NCBI RefSeq assembly: GCF_032116555.1
Contig: NZ_CP134949.1
Location: 2,418,001-2,482,000, forward strand
Length of the DNA: 64,000 nucleotides
Direction: 5' to 3'
Source: Halobaculum sp. XH14
GTDB lineage: Archaea > Halobacteriota > Halobacteria > Halobacteriales > Haloferacaceae
Shown: positions 989 through 49,594 of the stretch, in pieces
How the letters are laid out: every line of letters begins with the position of its first letter
Position numbering within the stretch: the stretch's first letter is position 1
Notes under the pieces: generated by a model
What the model was told of the DNA's origin: nothing
The model's input: the letters and a program-made list of their open reading frames with translations, nothing else
Database searches by the model: none
Made by a program: the position numbers and the translations under genes

Positions 989-2554
989 TTAGTCGTCCGC
1001 TGATGCGCGGTCCACGCCCTCGATGCCGGGCATCCCTTCGACGCCCATGGACGCGAGTTCACGTTTGAGTGCCTGTTCGTCCTCGATGTTCTGTGAGAGC
1101 TCCATCGCCTGCGCGAAGTTCTTCACGAGCCCGCAGTTGGGCCCCTCCGGGGTTTCGGAGGGACAGATGCGACCCCACTGGGTCGCGTGCAGGTCGCGCG
1201 CCTCGAAGTGCGGCTGGGACCGCGAGAGCGGCGAGCGGAGGCGACGAAGGTGTGAGAGCACGCCCATGTAGTCCGTCCGGTCGACGAGCTGGGAGACGCC
1301 CGAGCGGCCGCCCACCCAGTTCCCGGTGGCGATGGGGTGTTCGAGCCGTTCGGTGAGCACGTCCGAGCGAACCACCGTGTTGACGGTGAGCTGCCGGTTG
1401 CGCATGTTCGCACGTTCGAGCTGGTACTTCACGTCCCGGGCCAGCTTGTTCAGCGCCGTCCGGAACAGGTCGGTCATCAGGTCGCCCGAGACCTTGAGCC
1501 GCTTGTTCGCGTAGTGGTCCTTGTCGTCGGACTCGCGCCGGCCGAGCGCGAGTTCGAAGCAGGCTTCGGCCATCCGGCAGAGGTAGAACGCCTTGTTGCT
1601 GCGGGTCTCCTCGTCCTCGATGCCCTCCTCGTGGAGGTGCGGGAGGAGGTAGCGGTCGATGACGTAGTTCGCCCGCTTGAGCTGGTAGTTCTTCCCCTGG
1701 CCCGAGGCGACGCGCTCGCCGAGGGTCTCGATGGCCTCCTCCTCGGTCTGCACTTCGGCCTCCTCCAGGTTCTCCAGCATGTACTTCACGATCTCGGGGT
1801 CGTCCGAGACGCGGTGGACGATCTCCTCGTCGGATTCGAGCCCGAGCGCACGGACGAGGGTGACGAAGTTCACCGAGCCGGAGACCGACGGGAAGCTCAC
1901 TTCGAGCAGCCCCTCGCGGTTGCGCTCACAGAGGACCAGGGCGCGGTAGCCACGGCGCTGGGAGAACGTCTTGGCGACCTGGATCTCGTCGCCGTACTTC
2001 GTGTCGTACTCGGCGAGGATCTTGTTCGGCGCCAGGTCCTCCGAGGTCATCAGCACCCGCTCGGAGCCGTTGACGATGAAGTAGCCGCCGGGGTCGACGG
2101 GGTCCTCGCCGATCTCGACGAGTTCGTCGTCGGAAAAGCCCGCGATGTTGCACTTCTCGGAGCCGACCATGATCGGCATCCGACCGACCTTCGTCTCGGT
2201 CTGGTCGACGACCGTCTCCGGCTCCTCCTCGCCGCCGCGGATGACCTTCATCTCCATGAACACCGGGGCGGAGTAGGTGATGTTGCGGAGGCGGGCCTCC
2301 TGCGGGTAGAGCAGTTCCTCGGAGCCGTCGGCCTCGCGGACGCGCGGGGTCGTGATGCGCACGTCGCCGAGTTCGACGTAGACGGGCTCCTGTCCCTCCT
2401 TGTCGCCGATGTCGGTCTCGATGGTCTCCTTCTCGTCGACGACGCGCTGCATGCCCCGCGAGAGGAAGTTGTTGAACGACCGGAAGTGGTGTGCCGCGAG
2501 CCGTTCCTGGGAGAAGTACTCCCGGGACACCTCGCGTCGCGCCTCCCGGTTCAT
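989..2554 (-). CDS. rpoB2: DNA-directed RNA polymerase subunit B''
   Basis: This 521-residue protein is the N-terminal half of the split beta-like subunit (lobe, protrusion and start of the fork). Conserved RpoB stretches are visible: [13 protein letters not shown] near residue 160, [13 protein letters not shown] near 415, and the [25 protein letters not shown] region near 460, hallmark of the fork. The ATG at 2554 overlaps the last bases of rpoH (ATGA-type overlap) and the stop lies two bases before rpoB1. The three genes therefore form one minus-strand operon transcribed from the 2800-2880 region toward base 1. Length and content are normal for haloarchaea. Confidence 0.97.
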
Positions 2555-39662: not shown

Positions 39663-40298
39663 ATGGCCCATCTGCAGCTAAAAATTGACGCATCGAAGGT
39701 TGAAGATTGGCTGGCGATTCTCTCAACAGAGTTTCCGGAGGCACAGTTCAACATATCAGCGACGATTCCCATTAACAACGGCTTGCTCGGGATCGTCGAA
39801 ATCCGGACACGAGATGGTGGAAGGATAGTGGAAAGTGTCGAAGAGAAACCCGAGGTAGAGTCTTGCGAACCACTCCATACGGACGATCAAATGGTGGTAT
39901 TCCAATTCACAAGCCGGATGACAGAGTCATATGAGGCACTCATCTCGTCGGGGACTGTTCCACTGTATCCAGTTAGCCTTCAAAACGGATGGTATTCGGC
40001 CCAATTAACGGCTCCACAGGACCAATTGTCGGAATATCTGGATGAGATAACGGACGTCGGGATTCCGTATGAAATCGTCTCACTAACCCACTCATACGAC
40101 CCAAGCGAGTTGCTTACGGAGCGCCAATGGCAGGTGGTTGCTGAAGCGGTTGAACGTGGGTACTACGAGGCGACCCAACGCTGCACGCTCACCGAGTTAG
40201 CAGAAACGTTCGATATCAACAAATCGTCGATGAGTAAGCTGCTTCAGCGGGCAGAAAATAGAATCGTTACCGAGTTCGTCGCCAGGGCGTCCGCATAG
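39663..40298 (+). CDS. HTH_10 regulator, CTL/ELAE subtype
   Basis: This 211-residue protein (MAHLQLKIDASKVEDWLAILSTEFPEAQFNI) shares its whole plan with those at 17236 and 46545, including MTESYEALISSGTVPLYPVSLQNGWYSAQLTAPQDQLSEY and the HTH LLTERQWQVVAEAVERGYYEATQRCTLTELAETFDINKSSMSKLLQRAENRI. Codon use is more A/T-rich. It is divergent from the SDR gene at 38755-39528. A TATA-like stretch (TTTAAGTACTACG, 39633-39645) lies before the ATG. Confidence 0.9.
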   Translation: MAHLQLKIDASKVEDWLAILSTEFPEAQFNISATIPINNGLLGIVEIRTRDGGRIVESVEEKPEVESCEPLHTDDQMVVFQFTSRMTESYEALISSGTVPLYPVSLQNGWYSAQLTAPQDQLSEYLDEITDVGIPYEIVSLTHSYDPSELLTERQWQVVAEAVERGYYEATQRCTLTELAETFDINKSSMSKLLQRAENRIVTEFVARASA

Positions 40299-40437
40299 CG
40301 CGAGACGGTGACGGTGTAACGCAGTCGGCGTTCGATCGTTGATGTAGACACGCGTTCTTGGTGTGAAAGACTGCAGCGCTAGTCGCAGGCAAGAACGCGA
40401 CTGACTATTGGTGGAGTCTCCGAAACAGCCGGTCGTG

Positions 40438-41100
40438 TTAGCGGTCGGTGGCGCCGACGCGCAGCGACGAGAACACGGCCGCCTCGATCTTCCGCAGGTG
40501 CTCGCCGACGGTCGTCTCGGAGAGTCCGGTTGCCGCCGCGATCTCGTTGTGGGTCGCCTCGCGAGGCTCTCGGTAGTATCCGAGGTCGACTGCTGCCTCG
40601 AGCACCTCGCGCTGGCGCTCGGTCAACCGGGAGACTACGTGGCGAGGCCCGGGGTTGTACGGGCCGGTTCGCTCGACATCGACCCTGACGCCGTCCGGCT
40701 GCTCGGAGAGCACGTCGGCGAAGGCCGCCTCCGTCCCGATGTAGGTCACCCGGAGACCGCCTTCGTCGGTGTACTCGACCGGCATGTCGATCAGGTACGA
40801 CGACTCGCGACGACCCTGCATGAGCATCCGAGTCAGATCGTCCGCCACATAGCGCGTGTAGGCGAAGAACCCGGCATCGTCGCCGGAGATCGAGAACTCG
40901 TAGACCTCGGGCGCCTCCGACAACACCTGTCGGAGCCCCTCGACGTCGCCGCGACCCTCGGCGAACATCGCCACCGTGTCATCGTCGAGGAGTTCCATTC
41001 GGTGGATGGCTCGGTACGCCAAGCCGAGCTCGTTGACCCGTCGGTCGAGCCGGTTGATTCCCTCCTCGTCGGGATAGGCCACGACGGTGACGTAACGCAT
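40438..41100 (-). CDS. HTH_10 regulator, MRYxTV subtype
   Basis: This 220-residue protein starts MRYVTVVAYPDEEGINRLDRRVNELG and contains the subtype blocks MELLDDDTVAMFAEGRGDVEGLRQVL, FSISGDDAGFFAYTRYV, VEYTDEGGLRVTYIGTEAAF and the HTH LTERQREVLEAAVDLGYYREPREATHNEIAAATGLSETTVGEHLRKIEAAV. The frame is open to 41121, but the MRY start matches the paralogues at 30994 and 48002. It is divergent from an SDR gene at 41339 (238 bases between starts). Confidence 0.9.
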   Translation of the reverse strand: MRYVTVVAYPDEEGINRLDRRVNELGLAYRAIHRMELLDDDTVAMFAEGRGDVEGLRQVLSEAPEVYEFSISGDDAGFFAYTRYVADDLTRMLMQGRRESSYLIDMPVEYTDEGGLRVTYIGTEAAFADVLSEQPDGVRVDVERTGPYNPGPRHVVSRLTERQREVLEAAVDLGYYREPREATHNEIAAATGLSETTVGEHLRKIEAAVFSSLRVGATDR

Positions 41101-41142
41101 GCACTCACCATGGCGCGCCACCGCAAAAGTCGTTGACTATAA

Positions 41143-41188
41143 GCGTCCGGGGATCACCGGCAGTGCCGTCATAGCTCCCGGTTAAGGA
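41143..41188 (+). repeat. ~45-bp direct repeat, copy 1
   Basis: GCGTCCGGGGATCACCGGCA followed by GTGCCGTCATAGCTCCCGG and TTAAGGA matches 42173-42218 with about seven differences. The two copies are in the same direction and flank the SDR gene at 41339-42103. Copy 2 directly precedes a broken glycosyltransferase gene, so copy 1 may be the upstream region of a lost relative. Confidence 0.7.
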
Positions 41189-41338
41189 GAGATAACTGAT
41201 GAATCTCATAAATTTAATCGCGGAGATCTCGAGCTTTGATCCCACCATTGGGGCTGAGAGAACGCTTTCTCTTGGAATCTGTCACCGGGCTACCAATCGT
41301 GAACGTTTTCCTCATACTGGGGACCGACGCGACGGAAT

Positions 41339-42103
41339 ATGACCACGTCGAACGACGAGATGGTCGTCGTCCTCACCGGCGCGAACGCAGGTATCGGCTA
41401 CCACATGTTGAGAGTCCTGGCCAAGGACAAACACCGGATTGCTGCCCTCGATATTGCTGGCGACAACGTTCGTGACGTTCGAGACGACTATCCCGGTCAG
41501 GTTCGATACTACGAATGCGACGTCACCGACGCCGACGACGTGGACATGGCGGTGAGCGACATCATCGACGACTGGGACCGAATCGATATCCTCGTCAACA
41601 ACGCGGGTGTCGCCCGATTCGCTCCGTTTCAGGAGCGCTCGATGGCTGATACCCGTCGCGAGTTCGAGATCAACTTCTTCGGCTACCAACGACTGATTCG
41701 GGCGGTTCTCCCGCACATGCTAGAACAGGGGACCGGTATCATCCACAACATGGGCTCCGGGACACCGGACACCGGACATCCTGGTCTATCTGGGTATTCC
41801 GCAACCAAAGGTGCGATCAAGGGGTTCACCCGCTCCCTCCGGCTCGAACTCCGACACACGGATGTCTCCTGTACGTTGATGATTCCGCCGTCCACGAACA
41901 CGCAGATGACTGCAGATATCGAATACCCGGAGTGGATGACGGTCGAAGCCGAGGAAGTGGGTCGCAAGCTGGCATCCAAGATCCATTCGACCCAGTCGGT
42001 AATCACGCCCGACTGGAAAACAAGGGCCGGTTTATCGCTTACCCGATGGTTTCCCTCGATCTGGCGAAGAATGACGGCCGGGCTCGTCGAAAAGCCAGAA
42101 TAG
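41339..42103 (+). CDS. Classical short-chain dehydrogenase/reductase
   Basis: This 254-residue protein has VLTGANAGIGYHMLRVL (cofactor loop), ALDIAGDN (acidic residue after beta-2 favouring NAD), VNNAGVARFAPFQ, NMGSGTPDTG with the catalytic serine, and YSATK in SGYSATKGAIKG. The C-terminus (TRAGLSLTRWFPSIWRRMTAGLVEKPE) is hydrophobic and basic, a possible membrane contact typical of some lipid-linked SDRs. It is divergent from the HTH_10 regulator at 40438-41100. It lies between the two copies of a 45-bp repeat. Confidence 0.9.
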   Translation: MTTSNDEMVVVLTGANAGIGYHMLRVLAKDKHRIAALDIAGDNVRDVRDDYPGQVRYYECDVTDADDVDMAVSDIIDDWDRIDILVNNAGVARFAPFQERSMADTRREFEINFFGYQRLIRAVLPHMLEQGTGIIHNMGSGTPDTGHPGLSGYSATKGAIKGFTRSLRLELRHTDVSCTLMIPPSTNTQMTADIEYPEWMTVEAEEVGRKLASKIHSTQSVITPDWKTRAGLSLTRWFPSIWRRMTAGLVEKPE

Positions 42104-42172
42104 CGACACGAACGGCCCCATGTCGATCCCCGTTGACGAGGAAGCAACACCTCCCTCACATCGTGCACATGA

Positions 42173-42218
42173 GCGTCCGTGGATCACCGGCAGTGCGCTC
42201 ATCGCCCCCGGCAAGGAA
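42173..42218 (+). repeat. ~45-bp direct repeat, copy 2
   Basis: GCGTCCGTGGATCACCGGCA followed by GTGCGCTCATCGCCCCCGG and CAAGGA, the partner of 41143-41188. It ends 11 bases before the start of the glycosyltransferase remnant at 42230. Confidence 0.7.
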
Positions 42219-42229
42219 GGGTACTCACC

Positions 42230-42465
42230 ATGTCCGGCCGGTCGCCGACGAGCGTCCTGCTGCCCACGATGAGGTGGACCGACGCCTGCGCGGAGCAAGC
42301 CGCCCAACTCGGAGACGACGACGAGCTACTGGTCATCCACGACGGCGAGGAAGGTCCCGTCACCTAGCGGGAGGATCTCCCCGAGCGAGTCCGACTCGTC
42401 GCCGTCAGTGAGCGGGAACCGATACCGGGAAAAGGCCACCGCCACCGGGATGGAGGCTGGTCGCG
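42230..42465 (+). pseudogene. Family 2 glycosyltransferase, 5' fragment
   Basis: From ATG 42230 the frame gives MSGRSPTSVLLPTMRWTDAC, DDELLVIHDGEEGPVT and then a stop at 42367. The similarity continues in the next codons (EDLPERVRLVAVSER) and, after a frame change, TATGMEAGRA. These match the second broken copy at 45575-46442 (DELLVVHDTEDDPV, VRLVAAGEP, TAIAGGMEAAR). The remaining ~200 residues, including the catalytic core and membrane helices, are missing; the sequence continues as an unrelated epimerase fragment on the other strand. Confidence 0.7.
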
Positions 42466-42620
42466 CCGAGCCGTTCCGCAAACTCCTCCGAGATATCCGC
42501 GGCGCTCACCGGTTCGTCATCGACCACGTGTCAGAGTTCCCTTCGACCGGCCTCGGCGACGGCGACAAACGCGCTGGCGGCGTCGTGGACGTGGAGTCGC
42601 GAACTGGTCACGTTTTCCGA
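42465..42620 (-). pseudogene. NAD-dependent epimerase fragment with in-frame stop
   Basis: The minus strand reads SSRLHVHDAASAFVAVAEAGRREL, a TGA stop, then HVVDDEPVSAADISEEFAERL. Intact relatives have a tryptophan (xLWHVVDDEPV) where the TGA stands. This is the C-terminal-middle part of an extended-SDR protein like that at 12374-13360 (FLHADDAARAFATAV, YHVVDDRPTTLADFL). Only ~50 residues remain. Confidence 0.65.
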
Positions 42621-42639
42621 GCCCTCGATGATCGTCTGC

Positions 42640-43383
42640 TCACCAGCCGATTTCCCAGCCGCCGGATGGGTGGATGGTCTGTCCGGTCACCCACCGCCCG
42701 TCGGCACTGACGAGGAAGGCGACCACGTCAGCGACCTCGTCCGCCCGTCCGCGGCGACCGAGAGGCGTCCGTTCGACCATCCGTTCGACCGTCTCGTCGC
42801 TCATCAGTAGCCCATCGGTGTCCGTGATCCCGGGCGAGACCGTGTTGACCCTGATGCCCCACTCGCCGAGTTCTTCGGCGAGCGCGATTACCATCCGCTC
42901 TCCCGCCGCTTTGCTGCCGGCGTAGGGACCGATTCCCGATCCACCCCGTGCAGTTCCCACGGTCGAGAAATCGACGATTCGTCCGCCCTCGGCGATGCGG
43001 TTCGCCGCCTCCCGGAGAACCAGGAAGGTTCCCTTCGCGTTAACGTCGAAGACGCGTTCGAAGTCCGCCTCCGCGAAGTCCGACAGTCGTCCGCAGATGG
43101 CAATTCCCGCAGCGTTGACGACGATATCGACGCGTCCGAACGCGGCTTCGGCCTCGTCGAACAATCGCTCGACGTCGTCCGCTTCGCTCACGTCTCCCTG
43201 GACGACGATCGCTTCGCCGCCGTCGGCATCGATCGCGTCGAGGGTGCCTTTCGCCGCATCCTCGTCGGCCACGTAGTTGACGAGGACGGACGCGCCGTCG
43301 TTCGCGAGTCGCTCGGCGGTCGCACGGCCGATGCCGCGCGAGGAACCAGTCACGATAGCCACATCCCCGTCGAGGTTGGTCAT
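42640..43383 (-). CDS. 3-oxoacyl-ACP-reductase-type SDR
   Basis: This 247-residue protein from ATG 43383 (MTNLDGDVAIVTG) has TGSSRGIG, a VNYVADEDAAKG region, NAAGIAICG, S in DFSTVGT, catalytic YAGSK in GPYAGSKAAGERM, and SPGITDTDGLLM. The FabG-like layout and VTGQTIHPSGGWEIGW ending are typical of 3-ketoacyl reductases and related broad-range SDRs. An upstream ATG (43434, MNERNDDHDRTDGG) would add 17 polar residues; both are possible. It is in the same strand direction as, but separate from, the permease operon at 43637. Confidence 0.88.
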   Translation of the reverse strand: MTNLDGDVAIVTGSSRGIGRATAERLANDGASVLVNYVADEDAAKGTLDAIDADGGEAIVVQGDVSEADDVERLFDEAEAAFGRVDIVVNAAGIAICGRLSDFAEADFERVFDVNAKGTFLVLREAANRIAEGGRIVDFSTVGTARGGSGIGPYAGSKAAGERMVIALAEELGEWGIRVNTVSPGITDTDGLLMSDETVERMVERTPLGRRGRADEVADVVAFLVSADGRWVTGQTIHPSGGWEIGW

Positions 43384-43636
43384 CGTCTGTGCGCCACCGT
43401 CCGTCCGATCGTGGTCGTCGTTTCGTTCGTTCATCACTGGCACGTTCCTTCGATATCGCCGTCGCGGGACCGCCCGGTTTTCGTCGCACCGAATCGAACG
43501 GTCGTCCGTGCGGTCGAGTGCCGTTCGGCAGTACTGCCATCGTTTCGTCGTTGGTTTCGTGTCATGTTTTCGAAGCGGTTGGTAACGTTCGCGTGGGAAG
43601 TGGATCGTTTGTCGACTCGATCTGGTCGTCCCGTAC

Positions 43637-44593
43637 TTAGAGGAGGAGATTGAACGCGAGACCGACGGTGACGCCGATCGCAACGATGGTCCCGGCGTAG
43701 ACGAGCAGCAATCGGCGATCGAAGAGCTTGTTCAGGAGGACGAGATTCGGGACGCTCACGCCCGCGCCACCGACGACGAAGGCAAGAACCGTCCCGATGG
43801 CGACCCCCTGTTCGCTGAGCGACGCCGCGATGGGCAACATACCGCTGAGGCTGACGTAGACCGGCGCGCCCGCAAGTGCGGCCAGCGGGACGGCCAGCAG
43901 GTTGTCGGGTCCGAGGACCGTTCGCAACGCGTCGACGGGAACGACGCCGTGGATCAGTGCGCCGATGACCATGCCGAGAACCAGATACGGAAGGGTATCG
44001 ACGAAGAACGACCAGGCATCCTGCGCCGCCGCCTCGATGCGCTGGCCGCGGGTCGCCTCGGTGGGTACCGTCCTGGCCGCCTCGTGATCGGCTGTCCCGC
44101 CGTCTGCCACGGCGGTTCGACTGCCGTCGTCCACGATGCGGACGTCTTTGACGTGCTCGGCTAGCCCCAATCGACCGATGACGAGCCCACCGACGACGGA
44201 CGCGGCGAAGGTCAGGACGACGTACCAGACGGTCACTTCGAGGCCGAACAATCCGAGCAGCAGCACCACCGCGATCTCGTTGACGAGCGGCGAGGCGAGC
44301 AGGAACGAGAACGCGATTCCGAGCGGCGCACCCGCCTGCAGCAATCCGGCCAGGACGGGCACGGTCGAGCACGAGCAGAACGGCGTCACCGCACCCAGTC
44401 CGGCAGCGGCCACGTTGCCTGTGCCTTCGTCGTAGCGACGAAGTTTGCGCTCGATGTCTTCCGGTGGCAGGTACTCGCCCACGAGGCCCACGAGGAACGA
44501 CGCCCCGAGGAACAGCGGAACGAGAACCAGAGCCAGGTACACGAAGTACGCGCCAGAGTCGAGGAGCGCACTCTCGAACCCACTCGGCAACAC
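43637..44593 (-). CDS. ArsP-like permease (SO_0444/DUF318 family)
   Basis: This 318-residue protein has ~8 hydrophobic helices and the family hallmark GAVTPFCSCSTVPVLAGLLQAGAPLGIAFSFLLASPLVNEIAVVLLLGLFG in the first half, with GAPVYVSLSGMLPIAASLSEQG and GGAGVSVPNLVLLNKLF in the second. The CSCSTVP motif is typical of permeases exporting organoarsenicals or other thiophilic metals. It starts two bases after the ArsR gene stop, within the operon of the 47-residue CCG peptide, ArsR and permease. It probably expels arsenic or a related metalloid. Confidence 0.9.
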   Translation of the reverse strand: MLPSGFESALLDSGAYFVYLALVLVPLFLGASFLVGLVGEYLPPEDIERKLRRYDEGTGNVAAAGLGAVTPFCSCSTVPVLAGLLQAGAPLGIAFSFLLASPLVNEIAVVLLLGLFGLEVTVWYVVLTFAASVVGGLVIGRLGLAEHVKDVRIVDDGSRTAVADGGTADHEAARTVPTEATRGQRIEAAAQDAWSFFVDTLPYLVLGMVIGALIHGVVPVDALRTVLGPDNLLAVPLAALAGAPVYVSLSGMLPIAASLSEQGVAIGTVLAFVVGGAGVSVPNLVLLNKLFDRRLLLVYAGTIVAIGVTVGLAFNLLL

Positions 44594-44594
44594 G

Positions 44595-44978
44595 TCAGGC
44601 GTCCTCCCCGACGGCCCGGGCGAGGTCGAGGAGTTCGAACACCGCGGTGTCGGCGATGCGATAGTAACTCCACTTTCCTTTTTTGCGAGACTTGACCAAC
44701 CCCGCCGCTTTCAGCTTTCGAAGGTGCGTGGCGACGGTCGATTGGGGTGCGTCGAGGACGACCTGCAGTTCACATCCACAGCACTCCGACTGGCGCAGCA
44801 CTTCGAGAACCCGGAGTCGATCCTCGTTCCCGAGCGCCTTGAAGACGGTTCCCTGACCGGCGACGTCCTCCACTGACGGGCGAATGTCCTGCAGGGCCGC
44901 TATTTTGGCGTCCGGATCGTCGTACAGTCGATCGATCGTGTCGTAGACATCGTCGGGCGTCGAGTCCGTTTCAGACAT
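44595..44978 (-). CDS. arsR: ArsR-family metalloregulator
   Basis: This 127-residue protein (MSETDSTPDDVYDTIDRLYDDPDAKIAALQDIRPS) has an ArsR winged helix: TVFKALGNEDRLRVLEVLRQSECCGCELQVVLDAPQSTVATHLRKLKAAGLVKSRKKGKWSYYRI. The cysteines in ECCGCEL sit where As(III)/Sb(III)-binding cysteines are found in arsenical repressors. It lies between a 47-residue cysteine-bearing gene and the ArsP-like permease, all in one direction. The gene symbol is given because both motif and context agree; exact metal specificity is inferred. Confidence 0.88.
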   Translation of the reverse strand: MSETDSTPDDVYDTIDRLYDDPDAKIAALQDIRPSVEDVAGQGTVFKALGNEDRLRVLEVLRQSECCGCELQVVLDAPQSTVATHLRKLKAAGLVKSRKKGKWSYYRIADTAVFELLDLARAVGEDA

Positions 44979-45000
44979 ATCTCGTTTTTCCGTTTTTCTC

Positions 45001-45144
45001 TTATTCGCTGCAGGGCCCCGAGTCGTCCTCGCGTGAATCCGATTCAACCGATTCGACTTCGGCACCGCAGCAATCCGATTCTTCTTCCGGTTCGTACCGC
45101 GCAACGATTCGATCCCAAAGGCGACCGATGTTGTTCTGAGCCAT
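45001..45144 (-). CDS. 47-residue CCG-motif peptide of the arsenic operon
   Basis: A short gene from ATG 45144 to TAA at 45001 encodes MAQNNIGRLWDRIVARYEPE followed by an acidic part with SDCCGAEVE and a final GPCSE. Three cysteines in 47 residues, highly acidic, no membrane segment. It starts upstream of arsR by 23 bases and shares its strand. The CCGAE motif recurs in small haloarchaeal proteins encoded with ArsR/ArsM genes, so a metal(loid)-binding chaperone or sensor role is plausible; not proven. Confidence 0.72.
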   Translation of the reverse strand: MAQNNIGRLWDRIVARYEPEEESDCCGAEVESVESDSREDDSGPCSE

Positions 45145-45574
45145 CGCATCATATTGTATTTCTACAATTTGTATTAACCTTTCGTTTGCCCGTCGATCTA
45201 GACTCTCATGGGCGAGGGGAAGTCAGTCAGTAGTTCCGACGTTACGATAGGACGCTTCGTTCAGGGCCGAGTTTGATTCCAAAGCCGATGAGAACGCTGC
45301 CACGTACCGTACGAAGAGCCGTCTGGATGAGTTCGCGCTCGGTGATTGCCCGCCGGTCCCGTGCCGAGATGATTGTAAGAACCACTCGATGCCAAAATCC
45401 GAGCGTGACAGACGAGACTCCAGTTCTCGAATACGACGTGCTCCCCGTTCGGGTTGTTCGGCTCCTACCGGCAGCATCGGCGCGCACTGACGCGACCGTG
45501 ACCTCGTCGCTTCACGTCGATGTCGCCGATCGCTGAAGCGACCGACAGTCTCAGGAATCTCCGGCTTTGTTCAG
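45145..45574. other. Operon promoter region and unassigned sequence
   Basis: The part 45145-45180 is A/T-rich (ATATTGTATTTCTACAATTTG) with a near-palindromic TTGTATTTCTACAA, a plausible ArsR operator and TATA region for the arsenic operon. From 45223 to 45540 the minus strand has a frame with protein-like end (ARDRRAITERELIQTALRT...) but no recognised family; it may be another gene scrap. Confidence 0.4.
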
Positions 45575-46442
45575 ATGAACCGATGCATGCGGGAACTGGC
45601 TCCCCAGCTCGAATACAGCGACGAGCTATTGGTCGTCCACGACACCGAGGACGACCCAGTCGCCGAACACGATGGCCACGGTGAGGGCGTCAGGCTCGTC
45701 GCCGCCGGTGAGCCAGCGGGCTGTTCGGGGAGCCACCGCCATCGCCGGCGGGATGGAGGCTGCACGCCACGACCGCCTCGTCTGGACGGACGACGACTTC
45801 CACCACCCGCCGGACTGGCTGGCGACGATGAACGCGGACTACGAAACCCACGGCCCCGTGTCGGAGGTGCCGTACTTCGTCGGAGAGGATCCCCTGTCAG
45901 TGCTGCTCGAACCGCTGTACGCCTCGGCCGGCTCGCTGGGTCTCTATCTCGGCAATCAGATTTGGGGTGGTGCGGTCGTGTTCGAGCGAAGCGACATCGA
46001 CGAGGTCGCGTTTCTTGACGAGCTTCGGCGGACCGTCAGCGACGACGGACTCCTCATGGAGTACCTCCAGGTGACGACGGTCGGCCGGACGCGCATCGTC
46101 CCCATCGGGGGAACCATCCGGGAGGCGGTCGAGCGCCCGGTCCGATGGACACAGATTCTCCGCTGGCATTTCCCCGGGACAGTCGCCGGGATCTGTCCGG
46201 TCTCGTTGCTCGTCCTCGCTGGAGCGATCTTGGCTCCGCTCCATGCGGCAGTCGTTCTGACGGTGGTGCACCTCGGCGTCAACGAGGTACTGGGCGTCCG
46301 CCGGTGGACGGCCGTGCTGGCCTACCCATCGCTGTTCGTGTTTGTCCCTCTCATTTTCTACGCGCTCGCCCGACGGACGTTCGTCTGGGGCGGCCGGCGA
46401 TACCGCTGGCGCGGGAAGTTCGACGTGGCTATCGTTGAGTAG
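45575..46442 (+). pseudogene. Family 2 glycosyltransferase with frameshift
   Basis: From 45575 the frame reads MNRCMRELAPQLEYSDELLVVHD, TEDDPVAEHDGHGEGVRLVAAGEPAGCSG; near 45733 it moves frame to TAIAGGMEAARHDRLVWTDDDFHHPPDWLATMNADYETHGPVSEVPYFVG, which continues open to 46442. TDDD is the usual DXD-type nucleotide-sugar site. The C-terminal part holds hydrophobic helices (GICPVSLLVLAGAILAPLHAAVVLTVVHLGV, PSLFVFVPLIFYALAR), like ceramide-glucosyltransferase-type enzymes. The DNA up to 45733 is otherwise well preserved, so this may be a recent break or a sequencing error. The normal N-terminus is missing. Confidence 0.75.
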
Positions 46443-46544
46443 CGACCTGGCCGAAGACGACACCATAATCGAGATGTGTTCGTGACCCGCTCACCCCGTT
46501 CGAACGACAGCGATCGATGCAGTTGCTGGAAGCGCGGGGACTCG

Positions 46545-47195
46545 CTATCGCTCATTCGTCGAGGATCGTGAATCGCCGCCCGCCGACCCAAACGCAGTGA
46601 TGATCTTTCCCTCGGCTCGATGGAGCACGCGACTCACGGCGGATTTGTTCACGTCGAGGTGCTCGGCGAGCGCCGTCAGCGTGCAGTCACGCGGTGAATC
46701 GTAGTATCCGTGTTCCAGGGCAACGTCGACGACCTCGCGCTGACGGTCGGTAAGCAGGGGAGACTCCGTGGACGTCGCAGAAACCTGCGTGATCCGATAC
46801 TCGATCCCTGCCGAATCCAGTTCGTCGCGAAAGGCGGAGAGCTGATCTCGCGACGCGACGAGGTCACCGACGAGCCACCCGCCTTCGAGGTGCAACGGAA
46901 ACGACGGGACGACACCGGAGTCCGCAATCGCCCCATGTGGTTCGGGTATCGTCGTGGCCACCTCGCAGAGAACCCGGTCGGAACCCGCGTGCCGGACCTC
47001 GAAATCGGTGACGTCGGAGATCGTTCCGAGCGTCTCAGTGAGTGGGTCGACATCGAGTACGTCCGTCTCCACGAGCAGGCGGAGCTCCTCCCCATCGGGC
47101 CACGCTCCAAGAACCTCGAACGCTACGTCGGGATGGGCTTCTGAAAGCGCGACGAGCCCGTCGTTCGACTTGACCTTCAACGTCGCCTGGGGCAT
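46545..47195 (-). CDS. HTH_10 regulator, DSPRDCTL subtype
   Basis: This 216-residue protein has the same plan as those at 17236 and 39663: MPQATLKVKSNDGLVALSEAHPDVAFEVLGAWPDGEELRLLVETD, PHGAIADSGVVPSFPLHLEGGWLVGDLVASRDQLSAFRDEL and the HTH PLLTDRQREVVDVALEHGYYDSPRDCTLTALAEHLDVNKSAVSRVLHRAEGKII. It is the one HTH_10 gene here not divergent from its neighbour; instead a SnoaL-like gene lies 74 bases upstream on the same strand. Confidence 0.9.
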   Translation of the reverse strand: MPQATLKVKSNDGLVALSEAHPDVAFEVLGAWPDGEELRLLVETDVLDVDPLTETLGTISDVTDFEVRHAGSDRVLCEVATTIPEPHGAIADSGVVPSFPLHLEGGWLVGDLVASRDQLSAFRDELDSAGIEYRITQVSATSTESPLLTDRQREVVDVALEHGYYDSPRDCTLTALAEHLDVNKSAVSRVLHRAEGKIITAFGSAGGDSRSSTNER

Positions 47196-47269
47196 GATTC
47201 ATCCCTCGAGTGTCCTTGGTGCAGACCGACGTGCATACAGGTACGAGACGATCCACTCCTATCAAACCG

Positions 47270-47692
47270 TCAGTTGATCTCGGAGAGTGCACCGACCTGT
47301 CCCATGAGGCCCAACTGGTCGCTTTGCGTCCAGGTCTCGATCAGTTGCCCGTCCTCGAAACGATTGATCTCGATGGCAGCCAGTTCGACCCGCTCCCCGG
47401 TGGGCTCGACCCCGAATAGCCGCCCTTCGTGCGTTCCCACCATCGTCCACCGAAGCGCGACCTCGTCGTCCGCGGCGACCACGTCTTCGATAGTGAACGA
47501 TAGATTCGAGAATAACTCACGCGTCGACGACGCGAGCGCGTTGTAGAGGTCGGGCCCCTGCAACTCCTCGGCGAGTTCTCTGTCGTGGATGACGTACGCG
47601 TCGTGGACCAGTTCCTCGGCCGTGTTCGGGTTCTTGCCGTTCCAAACGTCCTCGTAGAGTCGCTCGATTACCTGCCGGTTGGTGTCGCCCAT
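47270..47692 (-). CDS. SnoaL-like ester cyclase / NTF2-fold protein
   Basis: This 140-residue protein is intact: MGDTNRQVIERLYEDVWNGKNPNTAEELVHDAYVIHDRE, NLSFTIEDVVAADDEVALRWTMVGTHEGRLFGVEPTGERVELAAIEINRFEDGQLIETWTQSDQLGLMGQ. The VATRWTxxGTHxGxxxGxxPTG and F.DGxIxE.W patterns are hallmarks of SnoaL-type ester cyclases. Two decayed relatives occur at 19133 and 52144. It lies just upstream of an HTH_10 gene. The substrate is unknown; members may also serve as simple binding proteins. Confidence 0.88.
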   Translation of the reverse strand: MGDTNRQVIERLYEDVWNGKNPNTAEELVHDAYVIHDRELAEELQGPDLYNALASSTRELFSNLSFTIEDVVAADDEVALRWTMVGTHEGRLFGVEPTGERVELAAIEINRFEDGQLIETWTQSDQLGLMGQVGALSEIN

Positions 47693-48001
47693 CCGAAGTA
47701 GATAGCGAGGTGACGACCGTAGCCATTATCGTGAACATGTTGACGTAATGGGGTTGCTCGTTTGAGACGAGTATTGAGTCGTCCACCGGGAGTCGTTACG
47801 ACGGCGCCACCACCTAATTTCGAACTCCGTCGGTTGGACTCCTCGCGAGCCAGCGCGATACTGTCTGGACGGTGAGACGACCGAATCGACATCAAGACAA
47901 ACCCTTCATCTGGTGATTCCAAGTGTTTCCCTATGGCCACTATGAATCGAAGGATGGACTGAGTAAGGCGATTTTTTCGAGAGTGTGGAACTACACCGGA
48001 T
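47693..48001. other. Intergenic region
   Basis: These 309 bases hold a possible minus-strand promoter for the SnoaL-like gene just right of 47692 (AGATAGCGAGG...). Otherwise I see only short frames on both strands without recognisable protein sequence. Confidence 0.35.
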
Positions 48002-48643
48002 TCAAACGAGTTCCATAATGACCTTCGTCTCGATCTTCCGCAAGTGCTCACCTACCGTTCCCGCAGAGATGTTCGCTCGGTCAGCGAGGTCTCGGAGAGT
48101 CGTACGCCGTGGCATCTCGTAGTAGCCCTCGTCGATCGCTAGTTCCAACAGTTCTCGCTGGCGATCCGTCAGCAGCGACGATAGCTGGCGCATCTCCGGT
48201 CGATACTCGCCGAGGCCTTCGAGCGTAATCCGGATGCCGTCGGGGATTTCCTCGATGGCCTCTCGGATCGTCCCCTCCTCTCCAATGATGGTTACCCGAA
48301 GGCCGCCCCGATCGGTGTATTCCATCGGCCAGTCCACGACGACCTCATACCGTCGGAATATACCGAGGAGGTCGGTCATGAGGGCGTTTGCTCGAAAGTG
48401 GAGATGGACGAGCCCTTCCGATGCTGTCGACTGCTCGACGGAAAGTACATCGGGATCCGCTTCCAGTGCGTCCATGCCCTGTTCGAAATCGCCACGGAGT
48501 TGATAGAGTCCAACGCCAGTTCCGTCGTTCAAGAGGTTGATGTAGTGAATCGCTTCACCGTGGACTGCTGAATCGGACACACGCTCACCGCTAGAACAGC
48601 GTTCGTCGTCGATCTGCTCGATGACGAACGTCGTATATCTCAT
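48002..48643 (-). CDS. HTH_10 regulator, MRYxTV subtype
   Basis: This 213-residue protein begins MRYTTFVIEQIDDERCSSGERVSDS and has the subtype blocks EAIHYINLLNDGTGVGLYQLRGDFEQGMDAL, VVDWPMEYTDRGGLRVTIIGEEGTIREAIEEIPDGIRITLEGLGEYRPEMRQLSSLLTDRQRELLELAIDEGYYEMPRRTTLRDLADRANISAGTVGEHLRKIE. It is divergent from the methyltransferase at 48833 (189 bases between starts), its likely target. Confidence 0.9.
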   Translation of the reverse strand: MRYTTFVIEQIDDERCSSGERVSDSAVHGEAIHYINLLNDGTGVGLYQLRGDFEQGMDALEADPDVLSVEQSTASEGLVHLHFRANALMTDLLGIFRRYEVVVDWPMEYTDRGGLRVTIIGEEGTIREAIEEIPDGIRITLEGLGEYRPEMRQLSSLLTDRQRELLELAIDEGYYEMPRRTTLRDLADRANISAGTVGEHLRKIETKVIMELV

Positions 48644-48832
48644 GCTAGTGATCCGTTCCCCGCGGCCGGAACGACTGTGTTCGGCCGGACTGTGTAGGGA
48701 GAGAGTGACTGGACCGCGTCTGGAGCGTGCTGCACTGCATCAAAGAAAGTGTACGCAACGTGCGTATTTAAACCCACCTCAGATGTATGGCACTATTCGC
48801 ATGCGGCGGTAGCTCGTCTCTATCGCCAACAC

Positions 48833-49594
48833 ATGCCAGGAAGCAAATCCGGAAGAGGCCACACGAGTCGGACGGAAACGAGCGCACCAGCCCTCGGTCA
48901 GCCGACGGCCCCATTCACCGAGCGATTCGACCCTGCTGCGCACCGGCGGTATCTCTCTCGTGACCTCCACGGGGAGGTACTGGATCTCGGTGCGGGGAAC
49001 GGTGCTATGTTCCCGTATCTGCGTACGGCCATGCAGCGCGAACCAACACTCCACCTGCACGCAATCGAACCGGATCCCGGCCGACGCAAAGAGGCGAATC
49101 GAATCGCCAGCGCGCACGATCTCGAGATACACGTACGGTCGGGACGAGCCGAATCCCTCCCGTATGCGGACGACACGTTCGACGTGGTCATCGCCTCCGC
49201 GGTGTTCTGTACGGTACTGGACCCGGCTCGTGCGCTCGAGGAAGTCCACCGCGTCGTGAAGCCGGATGGTGAATTCCGCTTTTTCGAACACGTTCGGTCG
49301 GACGGCCTCCGTGGCTACGTTCAGGACGTCTTGACACCACTCTGGAAACGGGTCGACAACGGCTGCCACCTCGACCGTCGAACGGCCGACTGGATCGCAG
49401 CGGGCCCGTTCGCTCTCGACGAGATCGAAACGCTACGTTTCGGAATTAGCCCGGTCAGGCCATTCGTGCGGGGAACTGCCACGCCAGTGAGTCAAACCGA
49501 GACTGCCAGCCGAAGCGAGTGGAGGGAGTCCGTCTCTTCGGCCACGCTGAAATCCACGAGTGACGGTCGGTTTCAGGAGTCGATTGAAACATGA
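48833..49594 (+). CDS. Class I SAM-dependent methyltransferase (UbiE-like)
   Basis: This ~253-residue protein has GEVLDLGAGNGAMFPYLRT (SAM loop), LHAIEPDPGRRKEANRIA, SGRAESLPYADDTFDVVIASAVFCTVLDPARALEEVHRVVKPDGEFRFFEHVRSDG and RTADWIAAGPFALDEIETLRF, a UbiE/Coq5-like order. The start at 48833 (MPGSKSG) follows a possible TATA in TATTTAAACCC (48764-48774); the frame is open upstream to 48749. It ends in a four-base overlap with a small membrane protein gene, implying a shared job with a membrane or lipid substrate. Confidence 0.87.
   Translation: MPGSKSGRGHTSRTETSAPALGQPTAPFTERFDPAAHRRYLSRDLHGEVLDLGAGNGAMFPYLRTAMQREPTLHLHAIEPDPGRRKEANRIASAHDLEIHVRSGRAESLPYADDTFDVVIASAVFCTVLDPARALEEVHRVVKPDGEFRFFEHVRSDGLRGYVQDVLTPLWKRVDNGCHLDRRTADWIAAGPFALDEIETLRFGISPVRPFVRGTATPVSQTETASRSEWRESVSSATLKSTSDGRFQESIET

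Follow-up and report, generated by a model that had tools for sequence, protein, structure and literature searches.

A 47-codon open reading frame that leads an arsR–permease operon in Halobaculum sp. XH14 is a real gene under purifying selection. Its product belongs to a peptide family that is apparently unnamed and spans archaea and bacteria. The family is tied to one part of the PF03773 (ArsP_1) permease family, in either gene order and with differing regulators, in both domains. We lean toward the view that the peptide is a vicinal-dithiol accessory of these permeases, which would capture a trivalent arsenical and present it to the permease.

The window, that is, the whole 64,000-nucleotide stretch of DNA that was analyzed, carries the three genes on the minus strand, with 22 nt between the peptide gene and arsR and 1 nt between arsR and the permease gene. 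The features are:

45153..45168, no strand assigned: ATTGTA-N4-TACAAT inverted repeat ahead of the start codon, candidate operator (p 0.075 against shuffles)
45001..45144, minus strand: gene for the CC microprotein, 47 aa (same-place counterparts and purifying selection)
45094..45138, minus strand: residues 3–17, predicted amphipathic helix (AlphaFold2 and hydrophobic moment)
45067..45072, minus strand: codons of the conserved Cys25-Cys26 (CCGAEVE; family form CCxVxIEE), two of the three alignment columns that reach 90% conservation among 37 sequences
45007..45012, minus strand: codons of Cys45-Ser46, what is left of a second Cys-Cys pair at the C-terminus (CC in 14 of 15 other long forms)
44595..44978, minus strand: ArsR/SmtB regulator, 127 aa (NF033788; resembles solved ArsR/CadC-type chains)
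44766..44786, minus strand: ECCGCEL of ArsR, where Cys67 and Cys69 fall on the cysteines of ELCVC in an alignment with Lmo1102
43637..44593, minus strand: ArsP_1 (PF03773) permease, 318 aa (Pfam score)
44357..44383, minus strand: PFCSCSTVP motif of the permease (TPFCSCSTVP in full), read from the sequence

The peptide gene starts with ATG and encodes MAQNNIGRLWDRIVARYEPEEESDCCGAEVESVESDSREDDSGPCSE, with three cysteines in 47 residues. The sequence-only reading had described a short gene with SDCCGAEVE and GPCSE ahead of arsR and the permease gene, as well as ECCGCEL in the regulator and CSCSTVP in the permease, and the gene and all four motifs are found where it placed them. The regulator (ATG at 44978, stop at 44595) belongs to the ArsR/SmtB family, with 93.3 bits against NF033788 (cut-off 55) and metalloid cysteines in the recognition-helix region. 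The permease, which has a GTG start, scores 205 bits against PF03773 (gathering cut-off 32.3). Every NCBIfam model stays under its cut-off on this permease, including the Cu/Zn efflux model, and the SaoE model reaches 122.9 bits against a cut-off of 325; its sequence found no solved structure at E ≤ 1. The Pfam and NCBIfam search of the window peptide gave zero matches at E ≤ 1, and the ORFs listed at 40000–49000 of the window include no further ars gene. An ArsR operator ahead of the peptide gene was considered and is not claimed, since the window repeat does not rise above its shuffles and only 5 of 40 loci exceed theirs.

A permease search over 292 genomes of the class gave matches in 56 genomes at E ≤ 1e-20, and the 43 matching places with E ≤ 1e-100 were taken as close permease loci. 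An intact short ORF lies at the same place upstream of arsR in 39 of these 43 loci, and it encodes Cys-Cys in 38 of the 39; the exception, L047, has CGC instead. The orthologues that the sequence-only reading had proposed to seek in other haloarchaea are therefore present, and a lack of conservation in the frame or its cysteines, which it named as grounds against the gene, is not what was found. The ORF is absent from L045, L053 and L072 and is interrupted by an in-frame TAG in L068. In this last locus the TAG stands right behind CCDM (about 2500–2660), and arsR and the permease gene appear intact.

The haloarchaeal peptides occur in two forms. The long form, to which the window peptide belongs, has 46–49 aa and a second, C-terminal CC, and adjoins an ArsR with ECCGCEL; L043 is a long form of 83 aa with three CC units. 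The short form has 34–45 aa (for example, MSMLDRLFGGG..DCCDVRIEEVD) and adjoins an ArsR with ELCACEL where this was read. The GPCSE end of the window peptide is derived and has lost one Cys of the C-terminal pair (CSE versus CCE or CCK): 14 of the 15 other aligned long-form members end in ..CCE or ..CCK, the exception being the degenerate L047. In a 37-member haloarchaeal alignment (without L043, L067, L068 and L071, and with L075 added), only the two cysteines and one Glu are conserved at 90% or more. Pairs among 11 long-form genes, with 47 codons each, gave a pooled pN/pS of 0.39 and pairwise dN/dS of 0.12–0.59 in the pairs with printed values, which indicates that the frame is under selection at the amino-acid level.

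The distribution of the peptide is patchy. Neither of the two same-genus genomes among the 60 genomes nearest that of the window has a match at E ≤ 1. The gene can also escape annotation, as had been anticipated: the PLSDB tables of Halococcus dombrowskii and Halocatena marina, which are stated to be incomplete, omit an ORF that is present, and in three other plasmids the peptide is annotated merely as hypothetical.

The family reaches beyond the haloarchaea. A peptide profile search in 392 genomes of the phylum found 18 with a match at E ≤ 0.01. One of these, L093 (E 7.1e-7), is a clear member that lies outside the haloarchaeal class and has a PadR-like gene, the permease gene and then MVKKLLNRLFGKKEDDKKCCDFEIVSEPED... 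Weaker matches in L094–L097 (E 0.0016–0.0064) were inspected and left out of the counts. The L094 candidate (1348–1641, minus strand, E 0.0016) resembles a decayed long-form peptide without the Cys pair, and sits downstream of an ArsR with ELCGCEL. In a Cupriavidus basilensis plasmid (L104), PadR and the permease are followed by an 89-aa hypothetical protein with three CCAxRIE-type units. Tandem triple CC units are thus seen both in the haloarchaeon of L043 (839–1090) and in Cupriavidus (L104, 3898–4167), and the CC unit has been multiplied in lineages that are far apart.

A genome collection was also scanned with the DNA pattern for CC[ADEG]VxIEE[VIM]. It gave 100 matching stretches, of which 80 were listed, and 31 of the 80 listed matches are short peptides of the CC type (15 bacterial, from several phyla, and 16 haloarchaeal), a count whose weakness is that the sorting was done by eye. 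The other 49 listed matches are either large proteins, many of which resemble one another and carry CCVVAIEEV, or chance frames, including short ones. A PF03773-type permease gene lies on the same strand, 51–583 nt from the motif, in 29 of the 31 peptide-type loci. L133 is cut by the edge of its stretch, and a whole-genome search places a permease gene beside it; L188, at a contig end, is a repeat of the L143 sequence, which has its permease. A permease gene hence adjoins 30 of the 31 peptide-type loci, the 31st being the contig-end duplicate, and none of the 49 other listed loci. Among the names in the titles of the scan records are Brevibacillus, Paenibacillus, Robertmurraya, Ornithinibacillus, Gracilibacillus, Fredinandcohnia, Xenorhabdus, Stutzerimonas, Rhizobiaceae, Prolixibacteraceae, Desulfobacteraceae and Synergistaceae. 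The bacterial peptides often have repeated CCxVxIEEV units. The 20 members counted have 2–6 cysteines each, typically 2–4, with up to six in bacterial forms. Family members are not fitted by any model of the copies of Pfam and NCBIfam that were searched, no description of the peptide was found in the literature searched, and among the loci examined there is no convincing selenocysteine form of the peptide (TGA for one Cys).

The constant partner of the peptide is the permease. In bacteria the peptide gene lies directly 3′ of the permease gene, with the first motif 51–104 nt after it, and in haloarchaea it precedes arsR. The regulator beside the haloarchaeal peptide is ArsR, and the upstream regulator in the 15 bacterial loci is MarR-like (L119, L124, L130, L159), PadR-like (L104, L157) or was not seen within the stretch; of these names, those for L124 and L157 rest on matches below the NCBIfam cut-offs, that for L104 comes from the record annotation and the others were given by eye. 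Since the regulators vary, the stable partner is the permease. The sequence-only reading had the peptide passing metalloid between ArsR and the permease, and the part given to ArsR is not supported: regulators differ, the bacterial peptide gene is downstream of the permease gene, and the one non-haloarchaeal genome of the same phylum likewise combines a PadR-like gene with a downstream peptide gene.

Other PF03773 permeases have a different small neighbor, usually a gene for an ArsE-type thioredoxin. In 16 genomes chosen via the peptide, 30 of 36 PF03773 matches were obtained as loci; all 15 loci with TPFC[SA]CST have the peptide and none of the 15 other PF03773 loci does, and a home-made profile finds an ArsE-type thioredoxin beside six of those 15. 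Two thioredoxins from plasmid loci exceed the cut-off of the MTH895/ArsE family model. Samples were also drawn independently of the peptide from the phyla of Brevibacillus (L116) and Stutzerimonas (L176). The best 30 loci in 101 genomes of the L116 phylum have no peptide and 25 thioredoxins, with one locus not resolved. Twenty further, mostly low-scoring loci of this phylum include nine with a TPFC/LPFC..ST motif: L270, L271, L272, L284 and L286 have the peptide, L285, L287 and L289 do not, and the contig of L276 ends. Among the best-scoring loci in 150 genomes of the L176 phylum, 28 of 29 new loci were resolved, with no peptide and 25 thioredoxins, a sample that does not represent the phylum fairly because it contains no CST-type permease. 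In some lineages the permease can do without the peptide, which is missing from 3 of 43 haloarchaeal loci and from 3 of the 8 readable TPFC..ST loci on the Bacillota side. The group halo_extra_c14 was left out of the partner counts.

A quick FastTree of 147 permeases, in which long branches are present, separates the two partner types. On the far side of a branch with 96% support lie 86 rows, 62 with an ArsE-type thioredoxin, 24 with neither partner and none with the peptide. The near side has 61 rows, 54 with the peptide (53 by script and L043 by eye) and none with a thioredoxin label, but these fractions are not prevalences, as 17 peptide rows entered the tree via the peptide itself (15 from the peptide-chosen genomes, plus L075 and L093). 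The near-side rows without the peptide are L045, L053, L072, L285, L287, L289 and L252, the last of which has a very long branch and is probably in a wrong frame. The peptide label requires 6 changes on the tree, against a mean of 43.6 in shuffles, and in the 147-row set the peptide and the ArsE-type thioredoxin are never found together. The tree is a better guide to the presence of the peptide than the TPFCSCST motif, which was rejected as a strict marker in both directions: L076 (VSPFCSCSTI) and L256 (VSPFCSCSTV) adjoin a thioredoxin gene, and L285, L287 and L289 carry the motif or one close to it but lack the peptide. The motif regex also missed L033, L034, L037, L042, L043, L270, L271 and L286, which were set by eye.

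AlphaFold2, run with 37 sequences, predicts a single helix at residues 3–17 (pLDDT about 75) followed by no fold (mean 68.2, pTM 0.30). The hydrophobic moment of the window helix is above nearly all shuffles, and 17 of 20 members exceed the shuffle median; amphipathicity is strong in the window form and less clear in others, with L153 and L272 lying at the bottom. The sole solved-structure match of the peptide profile, an alphabody (E 0.78), was taken as chance. With one predicted helix and no further fold, the peptide has the look of an anchor joined to a flexible tail that bears at least one dithiol.

Trivalent arsenicals are bound by vicinal thiols. As an arsenical carrier, the peptide would be held at the membrane or on the permease by its N-terminal helix, and its flexible tail would bear one or more vicinal dithiols, typically in a CCxVxIEE-type module. 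Each dithiol could catch a trivalent arsenical, probably an organic one, in the cytosol and hand it over for export to the thiols of the permease CSC motif. Members with more CC-IEE units would simply carry more beads on the string, and ArsR, or elsewhere the PadR-like or MarR-like proteins, would switch the set on. In PMC4435449 the C(S/T)C motif is presented as probably important for ArsP permeases, and ArsP of Campylobacter jejuni exports trivalent organoarsenicals and not arsenite, according to PMC6205960.

The gene neighbors point to arsenicals as the substrate. Genes for arsD and arsA lie near the peptide locus in Halobacterium sp. BOL4-2 and Halorubrum ezzemoulense, and those of Halococcus dombrowskii include a second arsR, ACR3 and a low-molecular-weight phosphatase. 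In Robertmurraya (L124), ArsN1a (221.1 bits, cut-off 170) and an arsenite methyltransferase (348.6, cut-off 263) come right after the peptide, and in Fredinandcohnia (L132) it is followed by ArsR and ArsB; an ArsM-like neighbor in Xenorhabdus (L153) and a partial ArsN1a match in Brevibacillus (L116) score under their cut-offs. Given these neighbors and the vicinal cysteines, it is plausible that the peptide handles metalloid. One haloarchaeal COG0701 permease, not assigned to a subtype, rose in silver (PMC10694973). This silver response, together with the models under cut-off and the lack of another ars gene in the window, makes a non-arsenic thiophilic substrate possible.

The main rival to a carrier is a redox partner, whose dithiol would hold the CSC of the permease in the reduced state or act as a reductant for the substrate, much as the ArsE-type thioredoxin might. 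The placement of ArsE-type genes beside the other PF03773 groups and never with the peptide in the 147 rows would suit such an exchange of roles, but the peptide has neither a CxxC nor a thioredoxin fold or profile match, and tandem CC-IEE units would fit binding better than catalysis; we consider a redox role unlikely. The peptide is small, has a predicted N-terminal helix and occurs strictly with a single part of the permease family; it could also be a regulatory or structural single-helix subunit that assembles with, stabilizes or gates the permease and uses the Cys pair as a substrate sensor. This seems quite unlikely, as conservation in the haloarchaeal set is high only at the Cys pair and one Glu, and members differ in how many CC units they have, a pattern that points to ligand binding.

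If ligands are bound, they could be other than arsenic: the peptide may buffer metal in the manner of a metallothionein, or serve as an accessory for another soft metal such as Sb, Cd, Hg, Ag, Cu or Zn. Bacterial forms with up to six cysteines and the Cu/Zn efflux model among the PF03773 relatives are consistent with this, but typical members, with 2–4 cysteines, are not as cysteine-rich as metallothioneins, and the arsM, arsN1a, arsB, arsD/arsA and ACR3 neighbors point to arsenic, so that we rate it as very unlikely. A short frame directly upstream of arsR, as in the haloarchaea, might finally be an attenuator leader peptide or a spurious ORF. We reject this as scarcely credible, given the selection at the amino-acid level and the bacterial peptide genes behind the permease.

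Several known proteins resemble the peptide in one respect each. ArsD carries vicinal Cys pairs and hands As(III) to the efflux machinery. This chaperone role is described in PMC6205960, and ArsD is likewise a small cytosolic protein of ars operons; however, the peptide has no match to its profile, its partner is a PF03773 permease rather than ArsA, and two plasmids have a separate arsD gene a few genes from the peptide. The MTH895/ArsE thioredoxin-like proteins (TIGR00412, redox-active disulfide protein 2) are also small thiol proteins beside a PF03773 permease, but they have about 80 aa, a GCxxC and a thioredoxin profile, and neighbor other PF03773 groups, whereas the peptide does not match TIGR00412. 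SaoC, the Cys-Cys-COOH (seleno)protein of the SAO operon as presented in PMC13188914, is a Cys-Cys or Cys-Sec protein alongside an efflux transporter, SaoE, which is a distant relative of the window permease. Unlike SaoC, the window peptide ends in CSE, its relatives mostly end in CCE or have no C-terminal Cys, and the peptides match no NCBIfam model. The GDCCVxC (seleno)protein (NF041374) is small, has Cys-Cys and can precede a PF03773 permease, but it has 72 aa, CxxC pairs and its own profile, which the CC peptides do not match. In Sulfuricella (L106, 2615–2833) its gene lies directly 5′ of a PF03773 permease gene in an ars cluster, as a third kind of small Cys-Cys neighbor. With no Pfam or NCBIfam profile match, the identities ArsD, ArsE, SaoC and GDCCVxC were all rejected for the peptide. 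The family resembles ArsD in the proposed idea, ArsE in gene place and SaoC in Cys-Cys character, but the models of these three do not match it. The tPFC(S/T)C signature is common to the window permease and ArsP cluster 2 of Yang et al. 2015 (PMC4435449); the account of that cluster in this source mentions no small partner, and here the tPF-type permeases split further by partner type.

A broader proposal is that the peptides are cross-domain arsenical-carrier microproteins, flexible strings of CC-IEE units that would be dedicated to delivering substrate to one part of the ArsP_1 permeases, whose relatives use the ArsE thioredoxin instead. We advance this more tentatively, as a serious possibility. 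The ars operons have been surveyed for decades, yet the searched copies of Pfam and NCBIfam offer no model for the peptide gene. If arsenicals are carried to ArsP-type permeases, a delivery step would be added to (organo)arsenical export, and ars operons would prove to have had a gene missing from their inventory, one that escaped notice because its product usually has just 34–90 residues. The apparent mutual exclusion of the peptide and ArsE divides PF03773, a large and poorly assigned family, into groups whose differences can be tested, and also yields a simple annotation rule.

Two homologues of the other partner type, L249 and L253 of the L116 phylum, have an in-frame TGA where the C(S/T)C motif has its first Cys (TPFUSCSA[IV]), beside an ArsE-type thioredoxin gene. 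The TGA probably encodes Sec, and these permeases are probably selenoproteins; a UxC form is listed for the SO_0444 Cu/Zn efflux model in PMC13188914. The genome of the window holds, elsewhere or on other contigs, three more PF03773 genes (L319, L320 and L322) of a longer type without TPFCSC. Two of them carry a CGMEVDP..CSQSC insert, and the CC peptide was not seen beside any of the three. The operon itself is flanked by two similar stretches, 42179–42367 (LLVIHDGEEGPVT) and 45575–46442 (LLVVHDTEDDPVAE), the second of which overlaps a 256-aa frame that is glycosyltransferase-like by eye; the two stretches, one on each side, may be broken copies of a single gene.
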